DNA from: Ignavibacteriales bacterium
GTDB taxonomy: Bacteria > Bacteroidota > Ignavibacteria > Ignavibacteriales > Ignavibacteriaceae
DNA: 64,000 nt
Direction: 5' to 3'
Assembly: GCA_015709675.1 (NCBI GenBank)
Contig: CP054182.1
Span: 496,001-560,000, forward strand
The notes beneath the pieces are model-generated. The model saw only the letters and a program-made list of their open reading frames with translations, ran no database searches and was not told the DNA's origin. The number at the start of each line of letters is the position of its first letter. Positions within the stretch are counted from its first letter, which is position 1. Below are positions 9,992 to 17,196 of this stretch, one piece after another. Made by a program: the position numbers and the translations under genes.

Positions 9992-10013
9992 TTTGGATTA
10001 CAATATTAGGACA

Positions 10014-10997
10014 ATGAAAGTAAAAGAGCCATTATTTGACTATATTAGCCCAGGCACTAATTATCAAATTAAAAAGGGCGACTGCTTGACGGTTCTTCAA
10101 AAAGTTGAAGACGGTAAATTTGATCTAATTTTAACCTCACCGCCTTACAACGTTGGCAAGTCATACGAGACTAAGACGAGCATTGAAAAATATTTAGAAA
10201 CACAGGAAGAAATCATTGCAGAACTTATTCGGACTCTTTCCGACAAAGGGAATATTTGCTGGCAAGTAGGAAACTATGTTAACAAAGGAGAAATCTTCCC
10301 CCTTGATATTTTTTATTACCAAATTTTCAAAAAACATGGATTAAAACTTCGCAATCGTATCATCTGGCATTTCGGACATGGACTGCACGCCAGTAACCGA
10401 TTTAGTGGACGTTATGAAACATTATTATGGTTCAGCAAGACAGACAACTATATTTTTAATCTTGACGATGTAAGAGTTCCATCAAAGTATCCAGGTAAAC
10501 TACATTTTAAAGGACCAAAAAAAGGACTACCTTCAGGTAATCCACTGGGAAAAAATCCAAGCGATGTTTGGGAAATTATTCAACAGGACTGGGAAAAAGG
10601 TATGTGGAACATTCCAAATGTAAAATCTAATCATCCTGAAAAAACAAATCACCCTTGCCAATTTCCAATAGAGCTTGTTGAGCGTTGTGTTCTTGCTTTA
10701 ACGGATGAAAACAGTTGGGTTCTCGACCCATTCTCTGGTGTAGGTTCGACAGTTCTCGGAGCAATAAAAAATAATCGAAATGCATTGGGAATAGAAAAGG
10801 AAGAAGAGTATTGCAATATTGCTAAGCAGAGAATTAAAGATTACAATGAGGGTAATCTAAAGATCAGACCTATTAATAAACCAATCCATAAGCCCACAGG
10901 AAATGATAAAATTTCTCAAATCCCCAAAGAATGGTTGGAGTTTGAACAGCTTAAAAGCAATGCGAAATCAAACCGCTTAAATGGAAAACTCTTATGA
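10014..10997 (+). CDS. Type II DNA methyltransferase, beta class (N4-cytosine or N6-adenine)
   Basis: A 327-residue SAM-dependent DNA methyltransferase. The catalytic motif IV TSPPY (residues 41-45) comes before the SAM-binding motif DPFSGVGST (238-246), which defines the beta order. SPPY is most frequent in N4-cytosine enzymes. I start at ATG 10014; an in-frame TTG at 9993 is possible. Its end overlaps the BglII-like nuclease by 4 nt (ATGA), so it protects the host against that partner. Codon use is clearly AT-richer than in the flanking metabolic genes, a sign of transfer. Confidence 0.9.
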   Translation: MKVKEPLFDYISPGTNYQIKKGDCLTVLQKVEDGKFDLILTSPPYNVGKSYETKTSIEKYLETQEEIIAELIRTLSDKGNICWQVGNYVNKGEIFPLDIFYYQIFKKHGLKLRNRIIWHFGHGLHASNRFSGRYETLLWFSKTDNYIFNLDDVRVPSKYPGKLHFKGPKKGLPSGNPLGKNPSDVWEIIQQDWEKGMWNIPNVKSNHPEKTNHPCQFPIELVERCVLALTDENSWVLDPFSGVGSTVLGAIKNNRNALGIEKEEEYCNIAKQRIKDYNEGNLKIRPINKPIHKPTGNDKISQIPKEWLEFEQLKSNAKSNRLNGKLL

Positions 10998-11608
10998 AAA
11001 TAGCACAAAAATATTCACATTTAAACGGTGAGGAATATCTAATTGTTCATCACAAGAAACTGTACAAAGAAATTATCGAAACTATTGAGTGTATTGATGC
11101 TTCAAAGTTTATGTCCAAAGAGAGCAAAGAGAAAACTATGAGCGGAAGAATGCTTTATAGTCCCATCGAACTGAATAAAGCATTCAATGCTATATTCAAT
11201 AAACTTGGATGGAATGAAAGTCGCTATCAATATTACATAACGACAGACCAAAAATTATTGCCCGAATTGATTCTCTTACCTTATGAGGAACAGAAAAGAT
11301 TTCTTATTTCAAAAGGTATTAAGTCTCCAATATCTTCTTACAAGCAAACAGATTTTGTAAAGAATCAAATTGCAGTAGAGGTTCAATTTGGCAAATATGC
11401 TTTTGTTGCATTTGACTTATTCGTGAAGCATTTACTTTTTTATTCTGGCGGTGTAATTAATCTTGGTATTGAAGTTTTGCCAACTAAGAAAATGCAAGCA
11501 CAAATGAGTAGTGGTGTTGCCTACTATGAAGGTGAAGTTTATAATGTTTTGCGACACGGAAGAAATAATCCGCCCGTTCCTTTACTCATTCTAGGAATAG
11601 AACCATAA
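10994..11608 (+). CDS. BglII-like type II restriction endonuclease
   Basis: A 204-residue protein resembling the BglII/BstYI endonuclease family. The active-site stretch TDFVKNQIAVEVQFGKYAF gives D120, E129 and Q131. The D-9-E-1-Q spacing is that of the BglII catalytic residues D84, E93 and Q95, and VEVQF is shared. It is translationally coupled to the methyltransferase. The recognition site is not deducible; AGATCT, GGATCC or RGATCY are reasonable guesses from the family. Confidence 0.8.
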   Translation: MKIAQKYSHLNGEEYLIVHHKKLYKEIIETIECIDASKFMSKESKEKTMSGRMLYSPIELNKAFNAIFNKLGWNESRYQYYITTDQKLLPELILLPYEEQKRFLISKGIKSPISSYKQTDFVKNQIAVEVQFGKYAFVAFDLFVKHLLFYSGGVINLGIEVLPTKKMQAQMSSGVAYYEGEVYNVLRHGRNNPPVPLLILGIEP

Positions 11609-12790: not shown

Positions 12791-12833
12791 ATTAAAAAAA
12801 TGCCCCTCCAAAGATAATCTCTCTGAAGGGGCA
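12791..12833 (-). terminator. Rho-independent terminator of the kamA operon
   Basis: The stem TGCCCCT (12801-12807) pairs with AGGGGCA (12827-12833). On the minus strand the hairpin is followed by TTTTTTTAAT. It lies 21 nt after the kamA stop. Confidence 0.8.
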
Positions 12834-12854: not shown

Positions 12855-14030
12855 CTACACCGCTATATCTTCTATCTTCGGTGTTACGATCTTCCTTACC
12901 GAGGCGCGGGTTTTTTTGCGCGGGGGTTCCGGTTTGGGAAGCTCCTGCGGTATCTCGCCGCCGGTTTTGCGCACCGACTTGCTGTTCTTGTCCTTTACGT
13001 TCCGGTAGGTATATACCTTCTTCTTATAGTTGCGGAGGACAACCTTCTCTTCATCATGATGCAGCACATAGTTCGGCAGAACGGGAATCTTTCCGCCGCC
13101 GCCGGGAGCATCAATTACAAAGTGAGGTATTGCCAGTCCTGAGGTCCAGCCGCGCAGGTGTTCGATGATATCCAGACCCGTCTCAAGTGAGGTACGGAAA
13201 TGGTTTGCGCCTTTGGTCTCGTCTGCCATATACATATAGTAGGGGCGGACTCTCATCTTCAGCAGTTTCTGCATCAGTTCTTTTACCACTGCCGGATCAT
13301 CATTCACACCCTTCATCAGAACCATCTGATTTCCTACCGGGCATCCCGCATCCGCAAGCATGGTGCATGCCTTCATGCTTTCGGGGGTTATCTCCCATGG
13401 ATGGTTAAAGTGGGTGTTTACATATACCGGATGATATTTCTTAATCATCTCAACAAGCTTTGGGGTGATGCGCTGAGGAAGCACGCATGGCATCTTGGTT
13501 CCAAGACGGATAATTTCGATATGGGGAATCTGACGGAGGCGCGCCAGTATTTTTTCCAGCATCACATCAGTAAGCATAAGCGGGTCACCGCCGGAAAGGA
13601 TCACATCACGGATCTCTGTATGCTGCTCAAGATATCTGAATGCAGCTTCCAGTCCTTTCATGGAAATCTTTTCCGAATCACCGACTTTTCTTTTGCGGGT
13701 GCAGAATCTGCAGTAGAGGCCGCACTGGCTTGTTGTCAGAAATAACGCGCGGTCAGGATAGCGATGGGTGATATTAGGAACCGGACTCATTGCATCCTCC
13801 ATCAGAGGATCTTCCGGACCGTCTATATCATCAAGCTCCTGAACATCAGGCACGCACTGAAGCCAGATCGGGTCACCCGGATATCTGATTAAACTCAGAT
13901 AGTAGGGGTTTATCCGCACCTGGAAAAAATCATTTAACCGCTCGGCAACATTCCGATCTATATTGAACTTCTCCACAAGCTGGTCAACAGTATGAACACT
14001 GTCTCTCAGCATCTGTTGCCACATCTCCAT
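12855..14030 (-). CDS. kamA: Lysine 2,3-aminomutase (KamA family radical SAM enzyme)
   Basis: A 391-residue radical SAM, PLP-dependent aminomutase. The [4Fe-4S] cysteines are C103, C107 and C110 (CGLYCRFCTRKRKVG). The PLP lysine is K314 in DAPGGGGKIPVLPNY. D270 (MADETKGANHFRT) and D307 lie 37 residues apart and D307 is 7 before the lysine; this is the spacing of D293, D330 and K337 of the clostridial enzyme, where the two Asp bind the lysine side-chain ammonium. It therefore probably makes beta-lysine, not beta-glutamate. The tail (about 345-391) is basic and Pro-rich. It is the last gene of an operon with a GNAT enzyme and two ATP-grasp ligases. Confidence 0.88.
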   Translation of the reverse strand: MEMWQQMLRDSVHTVDQLVEKFNIDRNVAERLNDFFQVRINPYYLSLIRYPGDPIWLQCVPDVQELDDIDGPEDPLMEDAMSPVPNITHRYPDRALFLTTSQCGLYCRFCTRKRKVGDSEKISMKGLEAAFRYLEQHTEIRDVILSGGDPLMLTDVMLEKILARLRQIPHIEIIRLGTKMPCVLPQRITPKLVEMIKKYHPVYVNTHFNHPWEITPESMKACTMLADAGCPVGNQMVLMKGVNDDPAVVKELMQKLLKMRVRPYYMYMADETKGANHFRTSLETGLDIIEHLRGWTSGLAIPHFVIDAPGGGGKIPVLPNYVLHHDEEKVVLRNYKKKVYTYRNVKDKNSKSVRKTGGEIPQELPKPEPPRKKTRASVRKIVTPKIEDIAV

Positions 14031-14039
14031 AAATTCTCC

Positions 14040-14519
14040 TTAAGAATTTAACATAAAATATTTTCCGAACACCAGTAATGAGTCGTCCACTGCGTAGAAA
14101 TGTTTTATTTCTGCTAACAAAGAATACTCATTCTTTTCATAAAAAGCACGCGTCCTGCCGTAATTTTCTTTTGAAGAAGTTTCAGCAAGAATCAGGCGCC
14201 CGCTCTGATCTTTAACAAACTCTTCAGCATGCTGAAGCAGTTCCTTTCCGAAGCCCTTACCCTTAACAGCAGCATCAACCACAATCCAGTAAAGATCAAA
14301 CACGGCATCAGTCATCGGGCGTCTGCCTGTGCAGTAATAGCCCATTACCTGACGATCATGCTCCTTCACAAAGATGTGATAGTCCTGCTGACCGGGAATG
14401 TTGATTGTTATATCAATCAGTTCCATTGCCACGCTGACCTCCTCAGCAGTAAACTGCCCGGTGGCGTCTAATATCTCTTTCAGCCGTTCTCTGTCAGACG
14501 GCTTCAGTGTACGTATCAA
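14040..14519 (-). CDS. GNAT family N-acetyltransferase
   Basis: About 159 residues of GNAT fold. The acetyl-CoA loop reads VDAAVKGKGFGKELLQHAEE, and ENYGRTRAFYEKNEY is the usual distal helix. No ATG start is present. I prefer the TTG at 14519, preceded by AGAAGGA; a TTG at 14540 is also in frame. Its start overlaps the end of the ATP-grasp gene and it lies 9 nt before kamA. The acceptor may be beta-lysine or a ligase product, by analogy with the AblA/AblB pair that makes N-acetyl-beta-lysine, although this protein is not recognisably AblB. Confidence 0.82.
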   Translation of the reverse strand: MIRTLKPSDRERLKEILDATGQFTAEEVSVAMELIDITINIPGQQDYHIFVKEHDRQVMGYYCTGRRPMTDAVFDLYWIVVDAAVKGKGFGKELLQHAEEFVKDQSGRLILAETSSKENYGRTRAFYEKNEYSLLAEIKHFYAVDDSLLVFGKYFMLNS

Positions 14520-15558
14520 TGTTCCTTCTTTTGAGTGCAAGTGATATCAGCGTATGCAGCATTTTGGGATAATCAAGTCCGGAGGTTCTTGCGGCGCGGA
14601 AGAATCCTGAATCGGATGATATATCCGGATTCGGGTTCACTTCGATGACATAGGGCGTTCCCTCTTTGGAAAGCCGGATATCAACGCGTGCATAGTCCCT
14701 GCATTCAAGCGCTTTAAATGACTGCATTGCTGTTTCGGTGACTTTTTTCAGCGCGCGCTGCGAAAGTTTCGCCGGGCAGACACCCTGCGTTCCTTTGTAG
14801 TACACGCTCTCAGCCATCCATTTGCCTTCGTACGTAACAATCTTCGGAAGATCTGGCGGGAGCTTCTTAAAACTGATCTCAGATACCGGCAGCGCCTTAT
14901 CACCCAGTATTGCCACGTTCAGTTCTCTGCCGTCAATATATTCCTCTACAAGAATATCCTGCTGATAGGTCTTGCGGAGGAAGTTTAACTGCCTGCGCAG
15001 AGCTGCAAAATCATGAACCACTGAGTTTTCGGAAATGCCGATGCTTGCATCCTCTTTAAGAAGCTTCGTTATGACCGGAAAACGTAATGTAAAACTTTTT
15101 TCAGTGACACGCTGACCAGGTTTAATAACCATGAATTCAGGTGTCTTTATGTTATGTGCTGAAAGAATTTTCTTCGTGAAAGATTTATCAAGGCAGTTGC
15201 CCAGCGTCTGCGGTGCATTTCCTGTATAGGGAATGCCCAGCAGAGGGTAAAGCCCTGCATGATATGCCTCAAACGAAGCAATTCCTTCTATGGATTCAAC
15301 AAAATTTAAGATAACATCCGGCGATGCTTTGCGGATTGCCCTGATATTTTCATGAACATCCCGTCCAATCGCAAGCAGTTCAATGCGCGAATAGTATTTC
15401 TTAAGGGATGACTGAATCAGATGCATTTCTCTCAGCAGCGAGGTCTCAGAAAGATCTTCTCCTGCCACGGCTCCGCCTGCAAGCGGCTTTCCGCTGTAAA
15501 CTTCATATACTGAAGCGGGACTGTTATAACAGACCAGCAATTTAATCGCTTTGCTCAT
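14494..15558 (-). CDS. ATP-grasp ligase, D-Ala-D-Ala ligase-like (second of pair)
   Basis: A 354-residue ATP-grasp protein. It keeps the Ddl-like order: NFVESIEG, YTGN, LDKSFTKKIL, ILVEEYIDGRELNVAILG and RVDIRLSKEGTPYVIEVNPNP. The glycine loop after the first ATP-binding lysines is EDASIGIS instead of GSSxG, and EVNPNPDI replaces the NTxPGM of true Ddl. The substrate is therefore likely different from D-alanine. It overlaps the upstream ligase by 4 nt and the GNAT gene by 26 nt or more. Confidence 0.82.
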   Translation of the reverse strand: MSKAIKLLVCYNSPASVYEVYSGKPLAGGAVAGEDLSETSLLREMHLIQSSLKKYYSRIELLAIGRDVHENIRAIRKASPDVILNFVESIEGIASFEAYHAGLYPLLGIPYTGNAPQTLGNCLDKSFTKKILSAHNIKTPEFMVIKPGQRVTEKSFTLRFPVITKLLKEDASIGISENSVVHDFAALRRQLNFLRKTYQQDILVEEYIDGRELNVAILGDKALPVSEISFKKLPPDLPKIVTYEGKWMAESVYYKGTQGVCPAKLSQRALKKVTETAMQSFKALECRDYARVDIRLSKEGTPYVIEVNPNPDISSDSGFFRAARTSGLDYPKMLHTLISLALKRRNIDTYTEAV

Positions 15559-16607
15559 GCAATGCCATATCTTTCAGCACCGAGCCATGCAACACGGTTA
15601 ATCAGTGCACTGTAATTCATTCCGGCAGAGCGCGCTGCCTTAGGAAAGCATGAATTGTCCTCGGGATTCGGAAGAATGCCCGGAAGTGGATTGATTTCAA
15701 TAATATTTGGCGTGCCTTCTGCATCAAGGCGGACATCAATGCGCGACCAGTCACGGCAGCGAAGCACCTTATATGCTTTTTTGCAGATGGTTTCAATTCT
15801 GTTTTTTAAATCATCATCAAGATGGGCCGGACAACTGAAGATATCAAGCGGATTTTCCTTTGTATCAAAGATCCACTTGGCTTCAAAGGAATAAACGGGC
15901 GCCAGATGAGAGGGGAGTTCCTGAAAATTTATTTCAACTATCGGAAGTACTTCCACGTTATCGCCATTGCCCATCAGAGCTACGGTAAACTCCCGGCCGC
16001 TCAGATATTGCTCAACCAAAGCCGGCTGATGATACTCATTGATGATTTTTGCAGCTGCTTTGGTCAGCTCTTCTGCATTATGCACCAGCGATGCATTAAA
16101 TATTCCTTTACTGGAACCTTCTCCGTTGGGTTTCACGAATAAGGGGAATGAAAATTTTGAGGCATCAAGTTCATCAAGAGATGAAATCACCTGAAAATCT
16201 GCCGTGGGAATGCTGTGATACTTGAGAATTTCTTTTGTGCGGGCTTTATCTAAACAGATAGAGAGAGTAAGAGGATCTGATCCCGTGTAAGGAATCCGCA
16301 GCATATCAAGGATTGCAGGGATTTGTGCCTCGCGGCTAATGCCATGCATTCCCTCTGCAATATTAAAGACCAGATCGGGTTGTAACATCTTCAGTTTTTC
16401 AAATGCTTCAGTATTTGCCTCAATCATGTGAACCTGGTGATATTCCGCAAGAGCATCACGCACTGCGTTTATCGTTTCCCAGGTATCCCATTCCGCGTAC
16501 TCATCAATCGAACTCTTATCATCCGGCACTGATTCAGAAGTAAGAGGAGATTCATTTTCATCGGCTGGTGCTTCCGGCTTTACATTAAAGACCAGAGCCA
16601 GTTTCAA
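15555..16607 (-). CDS. ATP-grasp ligase, D-Ala-D-Ala ligase-like (first of pair)
   Basis: A 350-residue ATP-grasp protein, first gene of the operon. Motifs: FNIAEGMHGISREAQIPA, IPYTGSDPLTLSICLDKART, FVKPNGEGSSKGIF, LVEQYLSGREFTVALMG and RIDVRLDAEGTPNIIEINPLP. The ATP-binding and Mg-binding residues look intact, but NPLPGI replaces the NTxPGM of Ddl. An acidic, low-complexity insert (about residues 12-38) follows the first strand. The two ligases are distant paralogs; one could join an amino acid to beta-lysine and the other extend it. This is inference from context. Confidence 0.82.
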   Translation of the reverse strand: MKLALVFNVKPEAPADENESPLTSESVPDDKSSIDEYAEWDTWETINAVRDALAEYHQVHMIEANTEAFEKLKMLQPDLVFNIAEGMHGISREAQIPAILDMLRIPYTGSDPLTLSICLDKARTKEILKYHSIPTADFQVISSLDELDASKFSFPLFVKPNGEGSSKGIFNASLVHNAEELTKAAAKIINEYHQPALVEQYLSGREFTVALMGNGDNVEVLPIVEINFQELPSHLAPVYSFEAKWIFDTKENPLDIFSCPAHLDDDLKNRIETICKKAYKVLRCRDWSRIDVRLDAEGTPNIIEINPLPGILPNPEDNSCFPKAARSAGMNYSALINRVAWLGAERYGIA

Positions 16608-16684: not shown

Positions 16685-16714
16685 CAAATATAATTAATAA
16701 AAACAAAAATACAA
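16685..16714 (-). promoter_or_regulatory. Promoter of the ATP-grasp/GNAT/kamA operon
   Basis: The minus strand has TTG (16714-16712), a 19-nt spacer, then TATATTTG (16692-16685). This matches the Bacteroidota TTTG-N19-TAnnTTTG promoter with the preferred spacing. The first ATG is about 78 nt downstream. Confidence 0.65.
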
Positions 16715-16919
16715 TTTTCAAGAAAAATTATGAATTGATAATTGAGAAATGAAAGTTGAGAACTGAAAGGTTCCTCATTGAAATGATGAGGGATGAACTT
16801 ACCGATTCTCCGGAGAGAACATGCTCTCGCAAAGAATTACATCGAAGTTTGAATTTTCCCGGATGTATTCTCAACCCCTAACCATCCATGATTCCAAAAA
16901 TATTTTCCCCCGCTTCGAA

Positions 16920-17160
16920 CAGACTGATGAAATTCCGTCTCAAAAGAAAATTCTGCCGGTTGAAGACAGATTGTGATTTGTCTCAACAAGAATTGATGAA
17001 TTCGTACAGACTGATAACAATCCGTCTCAAAAGAAAATCCTGCCGATGGAAGACAGATTGTGATTTATCTCAACAAGAATTGATGAATTTGTACAGACTG
17101 ATAACAATCCGTCTCACATGAAAATGCTGCTCAATGAAGACTGATTGTCATCTGTCTCTG
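16920..17160. repeat. 87-bp tandem repeat, about 2.8 copies
   Basis: CAGACTGAT begins units at 16920, 17007 and 17094, a period of exactly 87 bp. Each unit contains palindrome-like CCGTCTC and GACAGATTGTGATTTGTCTC motifs related to the GACAGAT...ATCTGTC family at 21757-22110. The period is a multiple of 3, so a frame stays open through it, but the peptide is not a plausible protein. Confidence 0.75.
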
Positions 17161-17196
17161 CATTCACATTACTAATTACTAACTGCTAATTACTAA

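Follow-up and report, generated by a model that had tools for sequence, protein, structure and literature searches.

A conserved operon of two Ddl-like ligases, an acetyltransferase and a lysine 2,3-aminomutase-type enzyme in Ignavibacteria: a possible route to acetylated beta-lysine conjugates

A 64-kb stretch of the genome of an Ignavibacteriales bacterium (contig CP054182.1, positions 496,001 to 560,000; hereafter 'the window') carries an operon that encodes two ATP-grasp ligases resembling the D-alanine-D-alanine ligase Ddl, here termed LigA and LigB, a GNAT-family acetyltransferase and a KamA-family aminomutase of the radical S-adenosylmethionine (SAM) type. The linkage of the four genes and the classes of their enzymes are well supported. 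There is, in our view, about an even chance that they constitute one dedicated and mostly vertically inherited pathway that yields an acetylated, beta-lysine-containing peptide or amide. The strongest evidence for a shared pathway is that the four genes co-occur despite dispersal in some genomes.

In the pathway that we propose, KamA would turn L-lysine into beta-lysine, as its conserved active-site residues suggest. LigA and LigB would activate carboxylates as acyl phosphates and would form amide bonds in succession to give a di- or tripeptide (or an amide) containing beta-lysine, and the GNAT would then acetylate one amine of the product. We infer that beta-lysine would be a ligase substrate, and likewise the order of the steps and the site of acetylation; as to whether the product is an acetylated peptide or amide with beta-lysine, the scales are roughly level.

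The operon and its conservation

The genes and their flanking signals are arranged as follows, in the direction of transcription.

16685-16714, reverse strand: promoter TTG-N19-TATATTTG, called with the help of its recurrence near the LigA start in same-family loci
15555-16607, reverse strand: LigA, the first gene, a Ddl-like ATP-grasp ligase of 350 amino acids with a TTG start (PF07478, E = 3e-40)
14494-15558, reverse strand: LigB, the second, divergent Ddl-like ATP-grasp ligase, 354 amino acids (PF07478, E = 1.6e-32)
14040-14519, reverse strand: GNAT acetyltransferase, 159 amino acids, with a TTG start within the end of ligB (PF13508 and PF00583)
12855-14030, reverse strand: KamA-family radical SAM aminomutase of the lysine 2,3-aminomutase type, 391 amino acids (TIGR00238, structure 2a5h and active-site residues)
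12791-12833, reverse strand: intrinsic terminator, a 14-bp stem (12833-12801) and a T-run (-24.6 kcal/mol, z-score -6.7)

The original prediction, made from the letters of the window, had described a unit of four overlapping or closely spaced genes between a promoter and a terminator. The reading frames agree with this: LigA and LigB overlap by 4 nucleotides (nt) and LigB and GNAT by 26 nt, and a gap of 9 nt separates GNAT from KamA, and these are also the commonest spacings at each junction (-4, -26 and +9) among the loci of the same family (L024-L045). An alternative GNAT reading frame of 166 amino acids starts 21 nt farther upstream. The terminator is likewise borne out by the stem and T-run standing 3' of KamA. 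The promoter fares less evenly. Its motif has a single match in the window where 1.07 are expected by chance and, taken alone, is weak evidence; the call is supported because 20 of the 22 same-family loci have a similar site, TTG-N18-21-TAnnTTTG, close to where LigA begins, compared with 1.3% of mononucleotide shuffles. The site is mainly a family-level feature: none of the 13 loci scanned from other families in the order has it, and at class level it occurs in 6 loci of 18 (one of the six inside the frame).

We collected 37 operon loci within the order and 20 from the wider class. The order LigA-LigB-GNAT-KamA on one strand is kept in 54 of these 57 loci, so that the genes are indeed neighbours in related genomes as the original prediction supposed, and the other three loci are cut by contig ends. 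Of 59 genomes searched with LigB, 54 gave a match with an E-value no higher than 1e-20; those in G027, G034 and G037 are weak or paralogous. The recG gene is present in 46 of the 57 loci, in 45 of them upstream and in the same orientation as the operon, which indicates that the place of the operon has mostly been inherited and not recently acquired; we read the adjacency as a reflection of ancestral position, not of function.

To compare the phylogenetic distribution of the four genes, we searched a single draw of 296 genomes from the phylum with one profile per gene. Cut-offs were an E-value of 1e-90 for LigA, 1e-60 for LigB and 1e-20 for the GNAT; for the KamA clade we counted matches scoring over 500 bits, together with one gene whose parts lie on different contigs, a line drawn after a gap down to 468 bits had been noticed. 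The counts are nearly equal (LigA 53, LigB 54, GNAT 54, KamA clade 52), and 52 genomes hold the complete set, the overlap having been established by list for three genes, with LigA added by eye. The exceptions are few: G045 has LigA and a LigB that is cut, with the operon, by a contig end, G027 lacks LigA and its match to the LigB profile scores like the paralogue LigC, and G135 and G315 have weak GNAT matches. A further 50 genomes have a KamA-family match at an E-value of 1e-30 that falls outside the operon clade, and have none of the other three genes. Within the class, at least 11 families (f1-f5, f8, f10, f13-f16) have members with all four genes, and no full set was found in the listed genomes of at least five others (f6, f7, f9, f11 and f12). 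Within the order, G009, G027, G037 and G049 lack LigA, the GNAT and the operon-clade KamA together.

In 9 of the 52 full-set genomes, from the sister lineages f37, f49 and f22, the genes are scattered over separate contigs or lie tens of kilobases apart, and thus they travel together even when unlinked. Seven of the nine scattered KamA proteins were placed in a tree, where they group with the operon KamA in a single clade (support 98/91) and the long branches fall outside this clade; the 14 ligase loci examined in these lineages hold one ligase each. Shared ancestry means that the genomes behind these co-occurrence counts are not fully independent. Taken together, the conserved order, the flanking signals and the matching profiles uphold the view of the four genes as a unit. 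In the scattered-gene lineages, KamA adjoins a ybeY gene in all eight loci seen (L221, L223, L225, L227, L229, L231, L233 and L235), a pairing without obvious meaning.

The acetyltransferase and the known beta-lysine osmolyte route

The nearest solved relative of the GNAT, both by sequence (E = 3.8e-25) and by fold (31% identity), is 2r7h, which is DDE_3044 of Desulfovibrio desulfuricans in an entry titled 'putative D-alanine N-acetyltransferase'; we know of no experimental test of its function. The predicted structure of the GNAT, with a predicted local distance difference test score (pLDDT) of 71, confirmed the fold and the proximity to 2r7h and nothing further. Where the genes are scattered, the GNAT adjoins a MurI-like racemase gene in five of eight loci (L220, L224, L226, L232 and L234).

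One alternative to a dedicated pathway is a variant of the N-epsilon-acetyl-beta-lysine osmolyte route, with KamA as AblA, the GNAT as AblB and the ligases either separate from it or extending the solute. The known route runs from AblA to AblB (PMC12776343). A lysine-type KamA fits this scheme and, with a true AblB missing, the GNAT could stand in for it. However, the equivalog tests for AblA (TIGR03820) and AblB (TIGR03827) both failed, KamA falling under the first cut-off and the GNAT having no match at all to the second model. None of the 59 genomes, that of the window included, has a protein over the AblB cut-off (four weak matches lie beneath it; in a control, 3 of 14 genomes passed), which argues against the standard AblAB pathway. 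Such a variant would also leave unexplained why the ligases share their profile with KamA and the GNAT, even where the genes are scattered, and we consider it unlikely.

KamA and its substrate

KamA passes the general KamA-family model (TIGR00238, 299.3 bits against a cut-off of 199.2) and matches the clostridial lysine 2,3-aminomutase 2a5h with an E-value of 7.5e-118. No NCBIfam equivalog was found for it or for the other three proteins (in the case of the ligases, among the matches listed). The claim that both lysine-binding aspartates are kept at the clostridial spacing was confirmed: in an ungapped alignment D270 and D307 correspond to residues 293 and 330 of 2a5h, and the two lie 37 residues apart in both proteins. 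The CxxxCxxC motif, the CTR arginine, these two aspartates and the GGGK lysine are all as in AblA; we take them to be, respectively, the iron-sulphur cysteines, the carboxylate arginine, the substrate aspartates and the lysine that binds pyridoxal phosphate. The comparison covered 18 KamA proteins, 11 from operons and 7 dispersed, and every one of them retains these residues and the motif IDxPxGGGK. The second aspartate motif is lost in the arginine enzyme BlsG and in a Rhizobium KamA, and several KamA proteins outside the operon clade retain both aspartates. Because the active-site residues of lysine 2,3-aminomutase are conserved, L-lysine is the likely substrate. The beta-lysine of the original prediction thus keeps its foundation in a lysine-type active site, as a product predicted from conserved residues.

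It is improbable that KamA acts on another amino acid and that the product therefore lacks beta-lysine. The score below the AblA cut-off would agree with such a shift, as would the residues flanking D270, which are MADET or QAD in the operon clade compared with QCDLS in AblA. But the enzyme misses by far the cut-offs for arginine and glutamate 2,3-aminomutases (TIGR04468, TIGR04368; 344.8 of 600 and 429 of 650 bits), and the lysine-binding aspartates and IDxPxGGGK are retained in all 18 clade members.

The two ligases

Both ligases fall below the cut-off of the Ddl model TIGR01205 (245.65 bits), LigA at 170.3 and LigB at 138.1 bits. LigA has GSSKG but carries NPLPGIL where Ddl has NTxPGMT, whilst LigB has EDASIG and NPNPDIS, so that the original prediction was right that the pair is Ddl-like without the NTxPGM motif and that one member also lacks the GSSxG loop. 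A tree of 38 ATP-grasp proteins sets its four Ddl sequences apart from the other 34 with support of 100/100. LigA forms a clade of its own (99/99), LigB and its paralogue LigC form another (99/94), with LigC branching within LigB, and the rhizobial ATP-grasp ligases stand as a separate clade. The genome encodes a separate true Ddl at C1:3390747, which scores better against PF07478 (179.8 bits) than does LigA or LigB. Canonical Ddl identity was accordingly rejected, on the scores, on the position of the clades and on the presence of this other Ddl, in agreement with the original prediction.

The LigA and LigB sequences of the tree retain the equivalents of K215, R255 and N272 of DdlB and also that of E270, save for an aspartate in three LigB proteins of sister lineages. 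At Y216 both ligases have a tryptophan, and LigB and LigC have an aspartate at the position of G276 (an asparagine in one LigC). Presuming that K215, R255, E270, N272 and Y216 have catalytic roles, these patterns point to LigA and LigB being working carboxylate-amine ligases with substrates other than those of Ddl.

LigC, a third ATP-grasp paralogue in this genome, lies at L061:6375-8373 (near 1503300 of C1 in the genome of the window), divergent from a gene for a C39-like peptidase, and this pair of genes recurs in L062, L063, L140, L142 and L143.

A role in the cell wall, in which the two ligases would make D-Ala-D-Ala or D-Ala-X for peptidoglycan as an alternative to Ddl and KamA would feed beta-lysine to the wall, has little to commend it. 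By sequence, the nearest solved relatives of both ligases are Ddl enzymes, and the gene beside the GNAT in five of the eight dispersed loci is glutamate-racemase-like (PF01177; MurI by eye). Yet that gene is present in only one of the 57 operon loci, a true Ddl is encoded elsewhere, and both ligases miss the Ddl cut-offs and lie outside the Ddl clade.

EF-P modification

The original prediction also allowed for the modification of a cell component, and elongation factor P (EF-P) was considered for want of EpmA: the gene set would put beta-lysine on EF-P or another protein, with the ligases in place of EpmA. Some ATP-grasp enzymes do modify proteins, no protein in 41 genomes exceeded the EpmA cut-off (TIGR00462; the lower-scoring matches are as long as lysyl-tRNA synthetase), and 21 of 23 EF-P sequences read have a PGKG tip (PGKGGAF). 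The proposal was nevertheless rejected for the genome of the window and is very improbable overall: the only EF-P of this genome has a PGNW tip with no modifiable lysine, the EF-P of the operon-bearing G007 is the same, G003, G009 and G024 share the PGKGGAF tip with operon-bearing genomes but have no operon, and KamA, which scores 231.5 bits where the EpmB cut-off is 369.3, does not resemble EpmB. The two loci with PGNW tips are L172 (C1:3948700-3949700 in the genome of the window) and L150 (G007).

Relatives elsewhere

The combination of two Ddl-like ligases, KamA and the operon-type GNAT was seen, within the data that could be searched, only in the phylum of the window; outside it, one contig scan with a single query sequence gave only three loci. 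KamA-family genes do lie near ATP-grasp genes in other settings, namely a Kitasatospora cluster with blsE, blsF and blsG (where the neighbour is an ATP-grasp/carboxylate-amine ligase gene), a Thioflavicoccus plasmid that also has diaminopropionate genes, and plasmids of Rhizobium and Mesorhizobium. The main text of PMC5572114 names neither BlsG nor BlsI. A scan of viral sequences with LigB gave two loci at 25% identity, and one with the GNAT gave none. KamA-family genes with 50-54% identity are found on seven viral contigs (L182-L188), one of them 332 kb long; none of these loci matches the operon ligases or the operon GNAT at an E-value of 1e-3, and in L184 a different GNAT gene adjoins KamA. 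We found no paper that joins two ligases, a GNAT and KamA in the open-access literature, subscription papers being beyond our reach, and the novelty of the set is provisional.

Weighing the proposed pathway

Several points count against a single dedicated pathway to an acetylated beta-lysine conjugate. The KamA score against the AblA equivalog is 458 bits, under the cut-off of 525.4. The substrates of the ligases cannot be deduced from their sequences, and a structure of LigB predicted from four sequences reached a pLDDT of 38 and was discarded. The proteins called LigB may not all be strict orthologues, because BLAST puts the second ligase nearer to LigC than to LigB in 8 of the 20 loci from the class beyond the order. 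The GNAT family is broad, four of the five distant plasmid relatives opened adjoin unrelated genes, and another of the genome's GNATs could act instead. Lastly, four of six plasmid places opened through KamA matches list no ATP-grasp neighbour and six of eight opened through ligase matches list no KamA; the plasmid gene tables are incomplete and these absences hold for the genes listed.

Given how many families of one class retain the set, we favour a solute or another small core metabolite over a secondary metabolite as the role of the product. A broader proposal, which we make with some reserve and hold to be rather less probable than the pathway itself, is that acetylated beta-lysine peptides made without a ribosome or nonribosomal peptide synthetase are an undescribed family, and serve as a core metabolite (a solute, a cofactor-like or an envelope molecule) of much of the class and its sister lineages.

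If the proposed pathway is correct, then many families of this little-studied class carry a conserved route to an uncharacterised amino-acid conjugate, and the uses of beta-lysine extend past the osmolyte, EF-P and antibiotics. Ligases of the LigA and LigB type would no longer be annotated as peptidoglycan Ddl. With only four small enzymes, the pathway is directly testable.

Neighbouring features

Just past the operon, at 9993-11608 on the forward strand, a DNA methyltransferase gene (PF01555) overlaps one for a BglII-like restriction endonuclease (PF09195), a pair whose domains identify it as a putative type II restriction-modification system. Upstream of the promoter, between recG and LigA, three tandem copies of an 87-nt sequence (100, 91 and 69% identity) occupy 16914-17174.

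Comparison with known systems

The proposed pathway has parts in common with several characterised systems. EpmA/EpmB resembles it in having a KamA-family enzyme that produces beta-lysine, but the genomes have no EpmA over the cut-off, the operon KamA is not EpmB-like and the EF-P of the window's genome lacks the tip lysine. In the blasticidin-type cluster, a KamA-family aminomutase (the arginine 2,3-aminomutase gene blsG) lies one gene from an ATP-dependent carboxylate-amine ligase. However, BlsG lacks the IDAPGGGG aspartate motif, the surrounding genes are those of a nucleoside antibiotic, and neither a second such ligase nor a GNAT is listed in the 9 kb shown. The AblA-AblB pathway shares with the operon a lysine-type KamA enzyme and a GNAT acetyltransferase; it differs in that the operon KamA scores under the AblA cut-off, the GNAT is not AblB and there are two additional ATP-grasp ligases. 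Those ligases differ from Ddl in their separate clades, altered substrate-loop motifs and scores under the cut-offs, but have in common with it the ATP-grasp domain and the catalytic residues, Ddl providing their nearest solved structures by sequence, just as DDE_3044 (2r7h) provides by sequence and by fold the closest solved counterpart of the operon GNAT.

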